Source of the DNA: Bacilli bacterium
Lineage (GTDB): Bacteria; Bacillota_I; Bacilli_A; RFN20; CAG-826
Length of the DNA: 33,434 nucleotides
NCBI GenBank assembly: GCA_017479485.1
Contig: JAFVCC010000030.1
Location: 1-33,434 of the forward strand
Reading direction: 5' to 3'
Shown one piece after another: positions 2,638 to 12,087 of this stretch. The notes under the pieces are model-generated. The model made no database searches. It saw only the letters and a list, made by a program, of their open reading frames with translations, and had not been told where the DNA came from. The position numbers were made by a program, and so were the translations under genes. Position 1 is the stretch's first letter, and each line of letters begins with the position of its first letter.

Positions 2638-3198
2638 TTAAGACAAAATGTCGCCGTAATGGCCTAAGGCCTTCATTGCTTTACTTAGGAATTCTTCCGA
2701 GAGTTTATCGGCTTTGATCTGACTTCGTTTCGCCTCCTCTTTGGTGACAATACGCGAATCTAGAAAACGGAGATTTGCGATGGATTTTTGATTTTTCAAC
2801 ACGATTTGCGTGAATTTTGGTTCAAGCGAAAGCACCTTGAGACAGACGGGCTTAGGTACGAATCCGCTGGTGAGGATTCCGACGAGGTCGAACAAGGTGT
2901 CGTTGGCAATCGGTGCGATAACGACGTCAGCGTCTGAATATGCGTCTTGGGCGAAGTTTCGGTTTTGAAAGACGGTGTCGAACCATCGCTCATTGATTTT
3001 TAGCGTCTCGACCTTAAGGCCGTCATCACGAAATTCATACACATTGATGTACCAACCCTCTTTTGCCCATAACAAGGAAAATTCTTCATCGGGCGATAAG
3101 TAAAACCCTTGCCCCATGTCGGCGTTTTTGCGGCCATGGAAGGGGCTTGGCTCTAAGATGGGCGTTTTGCTTGCGTGATATAGAGTCGTGGAAGCCAT
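2638..3198 (-). CDS. DUF3990 family protein (ADP-ribosyltransferase-like fold)
   Basis: This 186-residue soluble protein shows the DUF3990 pattern: LYHAS near residue 6, HGRKNADMGQGFYLS at about 21-35, and DVVIAPIANDTLFD at about 95-108. From family knowledge, DUF3990 has been placed near ADP-ribosyltransferases; the His of LYHAS and the Tyr of GFYLS would be the NAD-site positions. Its activity is not established. In clostridia it often follows a small DUF3791 gene; I see no such partner here. It lies 149 bp upstream of lacZ on the same strand but appears to be its own unit. The start at 3198 has no Shine-Dalgarno sequence and sits 6 nt after a TATAGT hexamer. Confidence 0.8.
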   Translation of the reverse strand: MASTTLYHASKTPILEPSPFHGRKNADMGQGFYLSPDEEFSLLWAKEGWYINVYEFRDDGLKVETLKINERWFDTVFQNRNFAQDAYSDADVVIAPIANDTLFDLVGILTSGFVPKPVCLKVLSLEPKFTQIVLKNQKSIANLRFLDSRIVTKEEAKRSQIKADKLSEEFLSKAMKALGHYGDILS

Positions 3199-6274: not shown

Positions 6275-7309
6275 ATGGACCTCGCAGTAGATAAGAAACA
6301 ACACTACAAGACGATCAGCAAAACGTGCTATGTAGCCAACACGGTGTATTTGTTCATACACGTTTTCTACTTGGTTTTGTTTTTGATTGCCAAACTTTAC
6401 ATCATGGTTGCCGTCGATGCAGCGGTTATTGCGATTTACCTTGCTTTCTTCTTGGTGCTTAAAAAGCAAAAGTACTACCTCTATGCGTTACTGTGCGGCA
6501 ACGAGTTCTTTGTCTTCGTTTCCGTCGCGACCGTAATGCTTGGCTTTGACACAGGCTTCCATTTTTATCTGATTGGCCTTTGCGTCGTTTCGTTCTTTAC
6601 CTCGTATTTCTCGAAGATTTCCAGCGCGACAAAGTCGTTGATTTGGGTAGGGTTATCCGTGGTGCTTTACCTCACACTATATTTTGTTACGCGGTATAAC
6701 GCTCCGTACTATGCCATCGATCCCTGGCTTGAAATCACCTTATTCGTCACCCACGCCATCCTGGTGTTTGGTTTTATCGCTTCGTATATGGTGGTGTTCC
6801 TTAGGTACGCGCTATCCCTCGAAAACCAGATTATGAACGATTCACGCACCGATGAACTGACCCAAATCAACAACCGATATGCTTTATATGACTATGTCGC
6901 GACCATTAAGGACAAGACATCCAAGGCGCTGGCACTATTTGATATTGATGACTTCAAAAACGTTAATGATATCTATGGCCACGCCACGGGAGACTATGTT
7001 TTGAAGCGTATCGCGGAGATCGCTTCTCAAACCTTAGAGGATGCGTTTGTTTGCCGCTATGGTGGTGAGGAGTTCGTCCTTGTCCTAAATGCGTATGGGA
7101 AGACCTCCTACTATGATCAGCTAGAAAACCTACGAACGAGCGTAGAGCGTGAACCGTTCGAGGTTAACGGTGAGCCACTGAAGATCACGATTACAGTCGG
7201 AGCGGCCATTTGCCCGAGCAAGGATATTGCTTTAGAAAAATGGATTTCGTTAGCCGACGAAAAGATGTACGCCGGCAAAAGCGCAGGTAAAAACCGGGTT
7301 GTTGTGTGA
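6275..7309 (+). CDS. Membrane diguanylate cyclase (GGDEF)
   Basis: This 344-residue protein makes c-di-GMP from two GTP. About six hydrophobic helices fill residues 20-178 and a GGDEF domain runs from about 187 to 344. The active-site motif is intact as GGEEF at residues 263-267, with the metal and substrate motif LFDIDDFKNVNDIYGHATGD upstream. The inhibitory I-site (RxxD, five residues before GGEEF) is absent: the corresponding residues are TLED. Product feedback at that site is therefore unlikely. The ATG at 6275 has only a weak AGAAGA ribosome site; an upstream ATG at 6239 runs into a stop. It is convergent with the RT gene. Confidence 0.93.
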   Translation: MDLAVDKKQHYKTISKTCYVANTVYLFIHVFYLVLFLIAKLYIMVAVDAAVIAIYLAFFLVLKKQKYYLYALLCGNEFFVFVSVATVMLGFDTGFHFYLIGLCVVSFFTSYFSKISSATKSLIWVGLSVVLYLTLYFVTRYNAPYYAIDPWLEITLFVTHAILVFGFIASYMVVFLRYALSLENQIMNDSRTDELTQINNRYALYDYVATIKDKTSKALALFDIDDFKNVNDIYGHATGDYVLKRIAEIASQTLEDAFVCRYGGEEFVLVLNAYGKTSYYDQLENLRTSVEREPFEVNGEPLKITITVGAAICPSKDIALEKWISLADEKMYAGKSAGKNRVVV

Positions 7310-7421: not shown

Positions 7422-9638
7422 TTAGCCTTGCTTATCTTCACCCATATTTCGATTGATGAAACGGTAATAAGAATTGACTAGGCTCCGATAGCCGAAGAGG
7501 CGGATGGTATCTAGAGAAAGGCGGAAACGGTCCTTCCCTTTCTTGCCGGTTGCGACAATGCGAATTAAGTCGAGAATCATGTCGTCGAGAACTTTGAGCG
7601 ACTTGGTTGTTGTGATGACTTTGAAGTGGTTTTCGACCTCATATTGATCCATGAAGCGCTCAATGTAGCGAATGAGTGAAGGCAAGCGTAAGACCGAGGG
7701 TACTTTCTTCTTCGAATAGTAGCGAAGGAGCGTTTTCCTTTGTTGAAAGATTCCTTGCTTCGCTCGTTTCATGAACGCTGGGCTAAGATCGATTTCCCCG
7801 CCCTCGACTTGATATCCCAAAAACGGAACTGCTTCCGAGGGGGATGCGATGAGGGTCTTCTCTTTGCTTAGGGCTAATCCGCGTTTTCCCAGAGCCTCTT
7901 CTATCGCATGGAGGGTTTGCTCTGCGTTTTCTTTGGTTTTGCATCCGACGAGAATGTCGTCTCCAACGCGGACATAAAAGGGGCATTTGGACTCAATATC
8001 TTGGTCGAGGCCTTTGAGGTATACATTCTCCATTACACCCGCCAAAGCCATTCCGGTCCATTGGGCTGGGCCGTCATGGTAGACGGACTCATCGCCTTCC
8101 TTGCGGTAGTCCTTCGCGGTGATGTAACGGCACAAGAACGAAGAGAGTGACTCATCGAATCCGTAAGCCTCTTTGACCGAACGAACCATCCATTCCTCTT
8201 GCATCGAAGGGTCGAAGGCATGGATGTCGGTGCGAAGGATGTAATACGAACTGAATTCTTTCTCGTTACGAATCTTTAAGAAGACGTCTTTTGGCCCTCT
8301 TCCCTGTACGTGCAGATATACGTTAGGGGAGAACTCTCGGTCATAACGATGCATCGCAAAATTGATTAATCCGAGGTCCCATTGATCACGATGCGGCAAG
8401 GAATAAAAAGTGCGTTCTTTGCCGTTTGTCACCGCGGTTTTCTGCGTTGGAATTAATGGAAAATAAGGGGATTTTAGAAGGTTTTCTACATTTTTGACGC
8501 AATTTTTGGATAAAAGGTACCGCAATGCTTCTAAGTCATCGTCTCCGCGGACACGTTCGTTTTGATGCAGCTGCAAGTAGTAGTCGCGGCGCAAGGCATA
8601 GTTCGTTACTTGAGATAAAAAGCCTTCGCCCTCATGAGGCTCCAGCTCGCGCAAAGCATCTTCCACTTCCTCGGGGTCGAGCTCAAGAAAGGAAGAGAGA
8701 AAATCACTGACGCTTTTGACTTCAGGCACGTTAGGAAACTCCACCATGAGCTCTAGATTCTTATTTATCGCGTAGTCGGTAAGGTTCATCGAGCCGAGGT
8801 AGAGATCGAATTTCTCGCCTTTGCGCGCAAGATATAACTTAGCGTGGATGAAGCGGTCGGTGTTTAGAAACAGGTACCGTTCGGATAAAAGCCCATCGTG
8901 GAGCAATGATTCCACGGTGCTCGGATTGGTGAATACGGTGCAACGTGAATCTGGCGGAAGCTTCTTTTTGACTTGTGCTAGAGCATCGGGCGAGATAAAG
9001 GGTGAGACGATGAGCAACTCGTCGTATTTATTCGTGAGCAAGGGCAAGGCTGAACAATGTGGGCCGTGGAAGACAAAAGAGGGTGCCCCAATGAGCGTGC
9101 TTTGAATGGCCGCTTCCCTTTCTTCTACTCGGAAATGAATGAAAGGAATGTCCTTAATTGCTTCTTTTAAAAGAGCCCTTTTTGCCTCTACGTCAGCAAT
9201 ACCCTCTTGAAGGCATGGTTCAAGCGATTGAAGGAGGCGAAGTAATGGTTCGTTGCCGGGCTTGGATTGGTCTGTTTGCTTGCCGATGAAGGTAACCCCG
9301 GCCTCAATGTTATCGTAGGCGCAGATGTTCTTGCTTCCGATTTCCAGACGGTACGCTATTTGCCCGCCTTCGCCCTCAAAGCAAGAGAACACGAATTTCG
9401 CGTGCATAAAACGAGGATAAGTCTCTCCTTCTTCGAGGGGAAACGCGACTTTTACAATTCCGTTATCGGGTATGTCGGTGTCGTTTTTATAAGGACCATC
9501 GCCGCGGAAAACGAGGACTTTTTTCCGGTCTAGACCTTTGGTCTCCTGCAAGTAGATTCCCATATCAAAATCGAACGTTGTCTCGATGAGATAACGCAGT
9601 TGGCGTGAGATCTTTGGGAAAACACTAGTTCGAGCCAT
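7422..9638 (-). CDS. Phospholipase D-like/reverse transcriptase fusion protein
   Basis: This single 738-residue ORF joins two enzymes. Residues about 1-300 form a PLD-like phosphodiesterase with two HKD-type half-sites: HAK 79-81 with GSKN 101-104, and HAK 265-267 with GSMN 282-285. Residues about 405-700 form a reverse transcriptase: NGKERTFYSLP (fingers), motif A LRTDIHAFDPSM with Asp471, motif B GPAQWTGMALAGVMENVYL, motif C YVRVGDDILV with Asp560-Asp561 (VGDD in place of YADD), then GLALSKEKT and FLGY at 606-609, and a helical thumb. All three catalytic Asp residues are present. There is no maturase-type or HNH domain and no intron ends. It has no signal peptide. The ATG lacks a Shine-Dalgarno sequence, with TATAAT 17 nt upstream. 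It is divergent from the peptide-RtcB-Fic operon. RNA-templated synthesis and nucleic-acid cleavage are inferred; it could belong to the defence-associated 'unknown group' RTs. Confidence 0.9.
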   Translation of the reverse strand: MARTSVFPKISRQLRYLIETTFDFDMGIYLQETKGLDRKKVLVFRGDGPYKNDTDIPDNGIVKVAFPLEEGETYPRFMHAKFVFSCFEGEGGQIAYRLEIGSKNICAYDNIEAGVTFIGKQTDQSKPGNEPLLRLLQSLEPCLQEGIADVEAKRALLKEAIKDIPFIHFRVEEREAAIQSTLIGAPSFVFHGPHCSALPLLTNKYDELLIVSPFISPDALAQVKKKLPPDSRCTVFTNPSTVESLLHDGLLSERYLFLNTDRFIHAKLYLARKGEKFDLYLGSMNLTDYAINKNLELMVEFPNVPEVKSVSDFLSSFLELDPEEVEDALRELEPHEGEGFLSQVTNYALRRDYYLQLHQNERVRGDDDLEALRYLLSKNCVKNVENLLKSPYFPLIPTQKTAVTNGKERTFYSLPHRDQWDLGLINFAMHRYDREFSPNVYLHVQGRGPKDVFLKIRNEKEFSSYYILRTDIHAFDPSMQEEWMVRSVKEAYGFDESLSSFLCRYITAKDYRKEGDESVYHDGPAQWTGMALAGVMENVYLKGLDQDIESKCPFYVRVGDDILVGCKTKENAEQTLHAIEEALGKRGLALSKEKTLIASPSEAVPFLGYQVEGGEIDLSPAFMKRAKQGIFQQRKTLLRYYSKKKVPSVLRLPSLIRYIERFMDQYEVENHFKVITTTKSLKVLDDMILDLIRIVATGKKGKDRFRLSLDTIRLFGYRSLVNSYYRFINRNMGEDKQG

Positions 9639-9754: not shown

Positions 9755-9783
9755 TTTACGCGAAACCCATTACCCATTAAAGT
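9755..9783 (+). promoter_or_regulatory. Possible promoter for the peptide-rtcB-fic operon
   Basis: TTTACG and TAAAGT are each 4 of 6 to consensus and are spaced by 17 bp. They would start a leader of about 150 nt that includes the structured segment. Confidence 0.3.
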
Positions 9784-9802
9784 AATGCTGAAGGTAAGGA
9801 AT

Positions 9803-9885
9803 GCAGCTTCGGCTGCTAGCCTGCAATCGTTCGTCAAGTTTGTCTACGCGGGTTACCCCGAGCAAGGCAGGCTGCTGCAAACTTG
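9803..9885 (+). ncRNA. Candidate structured RNA with interleaved helices
   Basis: Seen directly: GCAGC-TTCG-GCTGC hairpin (9803-9816); AGCCTGC (9818-9824) perfectly complementary to GCAGGCT (9867-9873); CAAGTTTG (9835-9842) perfectly complementary to CAAACTTG (9878-9885); and CGGG-TTAC-CCCG (9849-9860) nested between. The 7-bp and 8-bp helices interleave, so they form either a pseudoknot or a two-state switch. It could be the 5' leader of the peptide operon or, in antisense, a non-coding RNA upstream of the RT as in retrons and some defence RTs. No known RNA family was recognised. Confidence 0.4.
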
Positions 9886-9942
9886 GCGAAACATCTCTCA
9901 TCACCGTTTCCTTCCTCTCACGAATCATAAAGGAGAAAACGT

Positions 9943-10185
9943 ATGGCCAAATTACAGATCGAAAACCTTACGCCCGAATTGCTCGCTGAAGTGAGCAAAT
10001 TGACCACCGTGGACGAGGTGGTGAAGTATTTTGCCGACAAAGGCTTTGAAGTGAGCCCCAAAGTTGCCGAGCGCATCTTAGAAGGCAGCAAGCGCGAAAG
10101 CGTCGAACTTACCGACGAAGAGCTTAAAGCCATTGCCGCTGGCGGTGTCTGCGATAAGAAAAAAACCAGCGCGACCCGTTCCTAA
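9943..10185 (+). CDS. Nif11-like leader peptide (putative RiPP precursor)
   Basis: This 80-residue acidic peptide follows a strong AAAGGAG site. Its sequence follows the Nif11/NHLP leader pattern: a helical start (ENLTPELLAEVSKLTTVDEV), then YFADKGFEVSPKVAERILEG, then VELTDEELKAIAAGG. The double glycine at residues 67-68 is the usual cleavage point for C39-type peptidase-transporters. That leaves a 12-residue tail, VCDKKKTSATRS, with one Cys and several Ser/Thr. No LanM, radical SAM, cyclodehydratase or C39 gene is present in this window, so maturation would need enzymes elsewhere. Alternatively the peptide has a non-RiPP role with RtcB, 61 bp downstream. It is the first gene of an operon with rtcB and fic. 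Confidence 0.75.
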   Translation: MAKLQIENLTPELLAEVSKLTTVDEVVKYFADKGFEVSPKVAERILEGSKRESVELTDEELKAIAAGGVCDKKKTSATRS

Positions 10186-10217
10186 TTCTTGATCGTCTGC
10201 CATCCTTGACGGATTGA

Positions 10218-10234
10218 CTTTGTTCCCGACAAAG
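10218..10234 (+). repeat. Small hairpin between peptide gene and rtcB
   Basis: CTTTGT (10218-10223) and ACAAAG (10229-10234) pair over 6 bp with loop TCCCG, 12 nt before the rtcB ATG. No U-tract follows, so it is more likely a processing or translation-tuning hairpin than a terminator. Confidence 0.4.
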
Positions 10235-10246
10235 ACCAATTTGCAT

Positions 10247-11347
10247 ATGGAAATCATTAACGGCAAATACTGCAGCGCTTTTAACTTCGCGCCAGATTTA
10301 TCCTCAAAGGCTCGGAACGACCTTCTTTCGTTATGCTCTTCCCCAGCGTTAAGCGGGCGCAAAATCGCCATTATGCCCGATGCTCATCCTAACGGAGACG
10401 GCACGCTTACGGGTTTTACCATGACGTCAGGGGAAGAGGTTATTTTAGGCATCGAAGACGACTCTGGGTGCGGCGTGCGTTACGTGAAGCTTCCCGTAAA
10501 GAAAAGCGAGGTAGATTTTACGTTGCTCGATCAAGCCTGCCATCTGATTCCCGCGGGAAGGAAATGTTATCTCGAGCCGGGCTTTGACTTTGATTTCACG
10601 CATCTGCGCTGCTTCGAAGCAATCCGAGATTACTTCTCTTGGCCCGTTTATTTGGGGTGCCTTGGTGGCGGGAATCACTTCATTGAACTCGACGAAGACG
10701 AAGATGGCTTTCTCTACCTTCTTGTCCATAACGGGCTCGGCGTCTACTCTGGCCCCGCGAAGGACTATTATTTCCAAAAAGCGTTAGAGAAAGCAGGGGT
10801 TTGCAAGGAAAACGCGAAATTAGAAGATACGGTAATCATCGGGAAAGACAAAGAAGACTTCCTGTTCGATATGCATATCTTCGAGGAATTATGCCGCGAA
10901 AACCGTGCCTATATTCTTGACGTCGTCTTAGGGCGTCTGGGATGGAAGGCTATTGAAGAAGTGGATATCTGCCACCATTTCACCAGCGAGCAAGACGGCA
11001 TTATTCGCCATGGCGCGATCCAAGCGCAGAAAGGCGACCCGATTATCATTCCGGTCAACGCGAAAGAAGGTTGCCTGCTTGGCGTGGGAAAAGGCAATCC
11101 CGATTGGAATTACAGCGCCCCGCATGGAGGCGGACGCCTTTATAGCCGAAAGCAAACGCGAGCCACCTTCTCTATGGACGAATACCGTAGCCAAATGGCG
11201 GAAGTGCGCTCCTCGACCGTTTATGAGGAGAATCTGGACGAGATCCCTTCTGCTTACCGCGGCCTTGAAGACGTAAAGAAAAGGGTGGAAGACACCATGG
11301 AAATCCAGCACATCTTACGCCCGCTATATAATTACAAGGGCAAATAG
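10247..11347 (+). CDS. rtcB: RtcB-type RNA ligase, short (RtcB2-like) form
   Basis: RtcB joins RNA ends bearing 2',3'-cyclic or 3'-phosphate to 5'-OH using GTP and Mn2+. I start it at the ATG at 10247 (366 residues); the TTG at 10214 would add 11 residues unlike the family. The catalytic set is readable: MPDAHPNGDGTLTG (43-56), DDSGCG with Asp72 and Cys75, GGGNHF with His144, His161 in LLVHNGLG, His243/244 in CHHF, HGAIQAQKGDP, and SAPHGGGR with the guanylylated His at 293. Everything needed for activity seems present. It is shorter than canonical RtcB (about 400-480), like the RtcB2 branch tied to RNA damage repair. Fic follows 8 bp later, and the divergent neighbour is a reverse transcriptase fusion, which suggests an RNA-centred module. 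Confidence 0.92.
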   Translation: MEIINGKYCSAFNFAPDLSSKARNDLLSLCSSPALSGRKIAIMPDAHPNGDGTLTGFTMTSGEEVILGIEDDSGCGVRYVKLPVKKSEVDFTLLDQACHLIPAGRKCYLEPGFDFDFTHLRCFEAIRDYFSWPVYLGCLGGGNHFIELDEDEDGFLYLLVHNGLGVYSGPAKDYYFQKALEKAGVCKENAKLEDTVIIGKDKEDFLFDMHIFEELCRENRAYILDVVLGRLGWKAIEEVDICHHFTSEQDGIIRHGAIQAQKGDPIIIPVNAKEGCLLGVGKGNPDWNYSAPHGGGRLYSRKQTRATFSMDEYRSQMAEVRSSTVYEENLDEIPSAYRGLEDVKKRVEDTMEIQHILRPLYNYKGK

Positions 11348-11355
11348 AAGAGCTC

Positions 11356-12087
11356 ATGGAAATCGCGAACCACAAACCCCAAGAGAACGTGTCCTTTAAG
11401 GACCTCCTTTCGCTCGACCAGTGCCTAATGCCCCTTTTAGGCGATTATGAGAAATCAGGCTCCCATCTGCGGTTGCTCTACACCATGTCGCACTCTGCCT
11501 TAACGTTAGGAGAAGATCACCCTCGGGTCTATACCGCAAACCAATATCGCGCATTTCTTTTCTTAAGCGAACATAAGGACGACCTTTTTAACACGGATTT
11601 CATCCTTGGTCTCCATCGTGCCTTAACGGGCGAAGAAGGGGGCCGCTGGAAAAGCCGCAACACGTATTTTGACTTCCCAGACGGGGGCTTTTATGTGACC
11701 ACCTCGGCGGAGAAGACCCCTGAGGTTATGGAAGCCTTGGTGAAGAAGTATTCCTACCTCAACGCTCCAAAGGAAGATGAATTCGAGGGCATCTTCGAGT
11801 TCATTCTGCATTTCCTCTGCATCCATCCTTTCCTCGATGGCAACGGAAGGGTGTCTTCGTTTCTACTTCAATTCCTGCTTTATAAGGCGGGGCTAAAGAC
11901 GGCGATTTATTTGCCCATCGATGCGTTGCTAACAGGCCTTAACGCAACGAGAACGAGCGTTGAGATACGCCGCGCGACGGGATCATTCTACGGCATGAAG
12001 GAACCGGTGCTCGACTCATTCGTTCCGTATATGAAGAGCTTGGTAGAGAAAAGCTATCGTTTAATGATTGAGTCCCTCGAGGACTAG
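11356..12087 (+). CDS. fic: Fic domain protein (AMPylase-like)
   Basis: This 243-residue protein contains the Fic core HPFLDGNGR at residues 157-165. Fic enzymes transfer AMP or other nucleotide moieties from a co-substrate onto proteins, using the His of this motif. Two features are odd. The canonical motif HPFxxGNGRxxR has its last Arg replaced: RVSS puts Ser at that place. The usual inhibitory-helix motif SxxxE(G/N) is not clear: the matching N-terminal stretch reads MSHSALTLGED, with no Glu at the expected place. Self-inhibition may therefore be absent, or supplied by a partner. It lies 8 bp after rtcB and is the last gene before a terminator, so it is co-transcribed with rtcB and the peptide gene. 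The target is unknown. Confidence 0.9.
   Translation: MEIANHKPQENVSFKDLLSLDQCLMPLLGDYEKSGSHLRLLYTMSHSALTLGEDHPRVYTANQYRAFLFLSEHKDDLFNTDFILGLHRALTGEEGGRWKSRNTYFDFPDGGFYVTTSAEKTPEVMEALVKKYSYLNAPKEDEFEGIFEFILHFLCIHPFLDGNGRVSSFLLQFLLYKAGLKTAIYLPIDALLTGLNATRTSVEIRRATGSFYGMKEPVLDSFVPYMKSLVEKSYRLMIESLED

Follow-up and report, generated by a model that had tools for sequence, protein, structure and literature searches.

What does a bacterium do with a protein that joins a phospholipase D-like (PLD) nuclease to a reverse transcriptase (RT)? The question is raised by a gene on contig JAFVCC010000030.1 of assembly GCA_017479485.1, from a Bacilli bacterium (CAG-826, RFN20). The whole stretch of 33,434 nt was analyzed and is called the window here. 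The gene lies at 7422..9638 on the minus strand and encodes 738 aa from ATG to stop, with the PLD domain at residues ~1-335 and the RT domain at ~351-728. A preliminary description had reported a single uninterrupted frame of this length without giving the strand, and the frame is present as described. The motifs it had listed were found as well, namely both PLD half-sites (H79-A-K81...GSKN104 and H265-A-K267...GSMN285) and RT motifs A (D471), B (around G529/N538), C (D560-D561) and FLGY. Pfam RVT_1 matched the fusion above its cut-off (E 2.9e-10) and PLDc_2 slightly under it (E 1.9e-5, 25 versus a cut-off of 27 bits). Of the PADLOC profiles, ZacB matched the PLD part (E 8.8e-32 at residues 59-336) and RT_UG26 the RT part (E 8.1e-64 at residues 351-728; next UG17, 1e-20). 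Both models are linked to defence, and these sequence matches support a putative defence role. Taking all analyses together, we propose that the gene is one of five parts of a cassette that is most likely a relative of the DRTs acting in defence against phages, with an ncRNA-dependent polymerase at its centre, and we give this explanation about an even chance. The computed elements of the cassette are the PLD-RT protein, a pseudoknotted RNA, a peptide-RtcB-Fic operon, their co-occurrence and the changes in the polymerase active site.

The PLD domain (8634..9638, minus strand) is supported by an AF2 model, a fold search and the ZacB match. Its half-sites H79/K81/N104 (nt 9327-9404, minus strand) and H265/K267/N285 (nt 8784-8846, minus strand) are both without the Asp of the HKD form. 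Modelling of residues 1-339 alone with AF2 resulted in a pLDDT of 80 and a pTM of 0.83. A Foldseek search with this model returned Tdp1 (E 1.3e-6), and VIA placed yeast Tdp1 first with a Z of 16.7 (~261 aa, rmsd 3.8), versus Z ~14.5 for phospholipases D. As modelled, the domain is thus a pair of H-K-N half-sites in one two-lobed fold nearest to TDP1. The half-sites of Tdp1 itself are H-K-N and have no HKD Asp, so that the likeness covers both the top solved fold and the half-site residues; however, the identity to TDP1 is only ~11-15%, and the phospholipases D follow next in the ranking. The preliminary description had expected the half-sites to form one pocket and an RT palm to be present. 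The first expectation agrees with the single, confident TDP1-like unit obtained for the PLD domain alone, whereas the RT palm was of low confidence in the full-length model.

By sequence, the PLD domain is related to ZacB and aligns with it along both half-sites. ZacB belongs to the candidate defence operon ZacABC of PADLOC (DUF6361 - PLD - helicase) and differs from the fused domain in being a separate protein of ~600 aa that has a helicase partner and no RT. In rumen Bacteroidales we observed operons of the order ZacA (DUF6361), ZacB (PLD) and ZacC (helicase) at two loci (L038 and L039, complete in L039). Among stand-alone proteins, their ZacB-type products, of which that of L039 was aligned, are the nearest relatives of the fused PLD domain.

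The RT domain (7455..8588, minus strand) was assigned by its nearest model, a tree and fold matches to RTs, the top RT match in Foldseek being a DGR RT. RT_UG26 was the best RT model for the fusions tested (window, G018 and G212), with 214-240 bits over ~375 aa, and UG17, UG4 and UG27 came after it. In a small tree of 15 rows, one of them a long row that was not placed, the fusions grouped as a clade of their own, with 100/100 support, whose long stem (1.24) arises next to UG26. The preliminary description had left the position in the RT phylogeny to be settled; we found no described group with the same PLD fusion. The fusions differ from UG26 in several respects. True members reach 446-528 bits with the UG26 model, are RT-only proteins of ~400 aa (model length 398) lacking the N-terminal PLD domain and, in the aligned members, have a Phe gate and YxDD where the fusions have an Asp gate and V/C-GDD. 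Furthermore, they are without the RtcB, Fic, peptide and RNA partners of the fusions, and some adjoin an alpha/beta hydrolase gene in our data. Such a gene was seen beside each of three RT-only UG26 genes from within the order (L006, L044 and L045), in otherwise ordinary chromosomal surroundings, and the hydrolase is a possible partner of UG26. A search for RT-only UG26 in viral contigs found none. Two common homes of bacterial RTs were considered and rejected. For a group II intron, TIGR04416 reached 73.8 bits against a cut-off of 300 and no Rfam intron RNA was present in the window; for a retron, NF038233 reached 22.6 bits against a cut-off of 235 (E 5e-5), with no Rfam match at gathering thresholds. 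A DGR, the kind of element to which the top Foldseek RT match belongs, is a conceivable third home.

The active site of the polymerase departs from that of other RTs at two positions. Motif A (DIHAFDPSM; 8202..8228, minus strand) contains the catalytic D471 and, at the +5 steric-gate position, Asp476. An ungapped alignment revealed DIH[AD]FDPS[MI] in five of five fusions and D-x3-[FY]-F in 11 other RTs. The gate residue was Asp in all five fusions versus Phe in 11 of 11 other aligned RTs, which include four true UG26 proteins plus a near-copy of one and some mutually close sequences and hence amount to fewer independent controls. In RTs the steric gate is the +5 residue of motif A (Tyr115 in HIV-1, Phe155 in MLV), and RNA-dependent RNA polymerases carry Asp at the equivalent position (Asp238 in poliovirus). 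Full-length AF2 modelling, with 7 alignment rows, gave a pLDDT of 55.6 overall and an RT part too poor for placing the gate in three dimensions. The gate assignment therefore rests on the ungapped sequence alignment. The second change is in motif C, VGDD (V558-D561; 7956..7967, minus strand). The preliminary description had noted VGDD instead of YADD and had taken it to distinguish the protein from typical RTs. Both statements hold, since C-GDD is present in G018, G012 and G212 and V/C-G-D-D in all four fusions that reach motif C, versus Y-x-D-D in 11 of 11 other RTs. The gate substitution tells more than VGDD, and it was missing from that description, as were the RNA and the divergent operon. 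The gate Asp makes RNA a serious alternative to DNA as the product, but it is no proof of rNTP use.

The same data have to be weighed for a polymerase that writes DNA. This could be a DRT variant that makes cDNA from the ncRNA, protein-primed as in DRT9, DRT10 and the Abi RTs, with the TDP1-like domain freeing or trimming the protein-linked cDNA and RtcB and Fic acting downstream. The RT neighbours UG26, UG17, UG4 and UG27 agree with it, as the DRTs characterized so far make DNA. TDP1, the top fold of the PLD part, cleaves protein-DNA bonds; however, it favours 3'-linked adducts, whereas protein priming yields 5' links. The change from F/Y to Asp at the gate in every fusion also speaks against a DNA product. 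We regard DNA writing as possible, though clearly short of probable.

Among the 279 genomes searched in the order, 5 carry the PLD-RT gene; they fall into two genera of one family (5 of the 224 genomes of that family). Besides the copy in the window, the same genus holds a full-length fusion with 58% identity to it (G018), a copy with 50% identity split across two contig ends (G012) and a copy with 34% identity cut off by a contig end (G003). Another genus of the family has a full-length fusion with 36% identity (G212). The named copies come from rumen or abomasum MAGs of Bacilli/Erysipelotrichaceae. Because homologues of the fusion occur in independent assemblies, an assembly artefact can be ruled out. 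In a class sample of 395 and a phylum sample of 392 genomes there was no fusion, and only RT-only relatives were detected. Phage and plasmid collections did not contain it either, pattern scans of IMG/VR found none, and an origin from phages or plasmids was rejected. The GC content of the module genes is 48-51% in one genus and 29-33% in the other. As the fusion was kept in two genera with such different module GC, the association appears old and not the result of chance joining.

The fusion gene does not stand alone. In five of five loci the same neighbours are present, which rules out a lone gene, and across a gap of 200-300 bp a divergent operon encodes a peptide, then RtcB, then Fic; these and all other cassette statistics rest on five loci from one family, several of them on truncated MAG contigs. 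The peptide (80 aa; 9943..10185, plus strand) has a ribosome site AAAGGAG at 9929-9935 (plus strand), a double-Gly leader and a short Cys-bearing tail. It is found in all five loci, with 78-80 aa and 45-63% identity. Its matches to TIGR03798 (E 3.8e-4, 20.6 versus a cut-off of 32.3 bits) and PF07862 (16.3 versus 23.8 bits) stay under the curated Nif11 cut-offs, and we call it only Nif11-like. The second gene encodes a short RtcB RNA ligase (10214..11347, plus strand; PF01139 E 6.5e-29) with a likely start at ATG 10247. The metal/guanylylation residues D83, C86, H155, H172 and H304 are invariant in the three aligned sequences. RtcB falls under every cut-off of the curated NCBIfam RtcB equivalogs and thus represents a divergent subfamily. 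The third gene encodes a Fic protein of 243 aa (11356..12087, plus strand; PF02661 E 2.7e-14), present in five of five genomes. Where Fic AMP-transferases have HPFx(D/E)GNGR, its motif reads HPFLDGNGR in the window and G012 and HPFPDGNGR in G003, and deviates in G212 (HPFKNGNGR) and G018 (HPFLDCNGR).

The link between PLD-RT and RtcB is strict. This RtcB type (at least 540 bits) occurs in exactly the five module genomes among 216 of the family, the next RtcB scoring 176 bits. Within the genus, RtcB matches and PLD-RT share the same 4 of 31 genomes, with a chance of 3e-5 if they were independent, a value that shared ancestry raises. In G018 the contig stops at RtcB and Fic is found at the start of another contig; in G212 the genes flanking the cassette differ from those of the window. 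An RtcB-Fic-peptide toxin or RiPP cluster that happens to lie beside an unrelated PLD-RT gene would fit the divergent transcription and the resemblance of the peptide to Nif11-type RiPP precursors. It is nevertheless highly improbable, since order and orientation are the same in two genera with different flanking genes and no unlinked copy was found.

Two further observations were made around the cassette. A short locus of G018 (L015, contig C11, 1-1717) starts with 217 nt that are near-identical to the interior of PLD-RT (antisense) and lead into a Fic gene whose product is 63% identical to that of the window. The same locus has a GGDEF gene that shares 70% identity with window 6275-7309. This arrangement reflects either a chimeric assembly or a copy of the cassette that is inverted at the same site. 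Two genomes encode a DUF3990 protein in the vicinity of PLD-RT, at a distance of 4 kb in the window (2638-3198, minus strand) and directly beside it in G018 (L034, 3947-4354). DUF3990-like proteins are candidate defence genes in PADLOC (PDC-M13/M10).

A strict partner that is an RNA-specific ligase has no obvious place in a pure cDNA system, and this again argues against DNA writing. RtcB also brings up a device for RNA repair or editing, in which the PLD domain would cut RNA, the polymerase would fill or extend it, RtcB would seal it and Fic and the peptide would regulate, without being defence as such. Conservation of RtcB, and of a polymerase whose gate resembles that of an RNA polymerase, fits such a device. 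Phages often encode RtcB, and RNA damage and repair are a known battleground. However, presence in 5 of 279 genomes is the patchy spread typical of defence genes and not of housekeeping functions. Moreover, we know of no RNA repair operon with Fic and a conserved ncRNA, and the cassette is in this respect unlike those we are aware of. We consider a repair device unlikely.

The gap between PLD-RT and the divergent operon contains a structured RNA of ~125 nt (9790..9925, plus strand), which is supported by covariation and shuffling. It is enclosed by a closing helix P0 (5' AAGGAA at 9796-9801, 3' TTCCTT at 9908-9913). Inside are the hairpins P1 (9803-9816) and P4 (9849-9860) and the helices P2 (GCCTGC/GCAGGC; 5' 9819-9824, 3' 9867-9872) and P3 (5' 9830-9843, 3' 9877-9890; 10-14 bp across loci), all on the plus strand. 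P2 and P3 interleave and thus form a pseudoknot. Between P3 and P0 lies a conserved single strand, CTCTCATCACCG (9895-9906, plus strand; CTCATnAnCG), which in the window RNA has a direct repeat of CTCTCA on its flanks. Repeats occur in some loci, and 58 of 2000 shuffles reached their sum over all loci, so that a DRT10-like A-B-A' repeat template was rejected as unconvincing.

P0, P1, P3 and P4 are paired in each of the five loci, and the spacing P4-6 nt-GCAGGC-4 nt-P3 is constant. Outside P2, a structure-guided alignment of the five sequences contained Watson-Crick double changes at 15 of 24 aligned pairs. Plain MAFFT misplaces P1 and P3, so the counts for P0, P1 and P3 were taken from this structure-guided alignment, which is biased towards the structure. 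P2 is nearly invariant and therefore without covariation support of its own, and the one mismatch in all five sequences is in P2 of G012. RNAalifold on the plain MAFFT alignment independently recovered P1, P2 and P4, and in 7 of the pairs both partners had changed. P0 has 6, 6, 12, 9 and 10 bp in the five loci, and none of 2000 shuffles was as good. From the window to G212 the GC content of the RNA falls from 53% to 34% with the pairing retained. Eight G.U pairs on the plus strand (A.C on the other) versus one C.A favour the plus strand, the strand of the peptide. A possible promoter (TTTACG-N17-TAAAGT; 9755..9783, plus strand) was seen by eye and is weak. Its 17-nt spacing is readable in the other four loci, and a stricter consensus scan found no promoter before the RNA. 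Rfam had no match to the RNA at its thresholds.

The preliminary description had supposed that the RT makes cDNA from a specific RNA, and this RNA is a candidate for such a partner of the adjoining PLD-RT. It could also be a mere leader, since it ends about 30 nt before the start codon of the peptide. In that case it would control the peptide-RtcB-Fic operon in cis and PLD-RT would be a functional partner without copying it. The common orientation with the operon and the end just before the ribosome site are in line with a leader. Yet a covariance model built from the five loci, which matches once in each of those genomes by construction, found the RNA only with PLD-RT among 220 genomes of the family, save one weak partial match (E 0.038). 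The pairing of the ends in P0 suits a discrete RNA, and a pseudoknotted cis RNA beside an RT is the arrangement of DRT2 (PMC12039810). We think a regulatory leader rather doubtful.

Under the defence explanation we propose the following course. As is the case in DRT2, DRT9 and DRT10, the RNA would be a separate molecule that partners the RT domain. The polymerase would copy a short single-stranded part of it, for which CTCATnAnCG between P3 and the closing helix is the best template candidate. Because of the Asp at the steric gate and xGDD in motif C, ribonucleotides may be accepted, possibly yielding RNA or mixed RNA/DNA. The TDP1-like domain would cut or free the product end, which could be a nucleic-acid end or a link between protein and nucleic acid, and RtcB would join or circularize RNA ends. 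Fic may be the toxic or regulatory output, perhaps acting on the peptide or being restrained by it. A more specific version is suggested by the gate Asp, the GDD and the strict RtcB partner. Here, an RT-derived polymerase that writes RNA copies the cis RNA and, with the TDP1-like nuclease and RtcB, makes or circularizes RNA for immunity. We put this version forward tentatively, as an attractive possibility and not as the expected outcome.

In the available literature, which did not extend to the main UG/Abi survey (10.1093/nar/gkac467), we found no PLD-RT fusion, in agreement with the preliminary description, and no RtcB/Fic/Nif11/RT system. RTs of the UG/DRT type with a cis ncRNA are known (PMC12039810, PMC12632851); for the fusion, its altered active site and its set of partners we found no description. 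DRTs are bacterial RTs that write unexpected DNAs for immunity. The cassette would extend this theme to an RNA-polymerase-like active site and an RNA ligase and, if RNA writing is true, would do with RNA what the DRTs do with DNA. For the RT lineage it would be a natural example of changed sugar selectivity, and it would combine in a single machine three components known separately from defence: a UG26-like RT, a ZacB-like PLD and Fic.

Compared with known systems, the fusion shares with RNA-dependent RNA polymerases the D-x4-D of motif A (5/5 fusions) and the GDD of motif C (4/4 fusions). It differs from them in that its profile and fold matches are RTs and its motif B is RT-like (G-x8-N). 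The plan of retrons, an RT with a structured RNA and an effector, is alike in general terms, but retron models match the fusion weakly. DRT2 and DRT10 (UG2 and UG17) are closer in arrangement. In both, a cis-encoded structured RNA adjoins the RT, as here; that of DRT2 is pseudoknotted (PMC12039810), and DRT10 combines its ncRNA and RT with a partner protein, SLATT (PMC12632851). They have another RNA fold and other partners, make DNA and are without PLD, RtcB or Fic. A cis-encoded structured RNA beside the RT is a trait of the Class 2 DRTs studied so far, and the cassette has one in the covarying RNA at 9790-9925.
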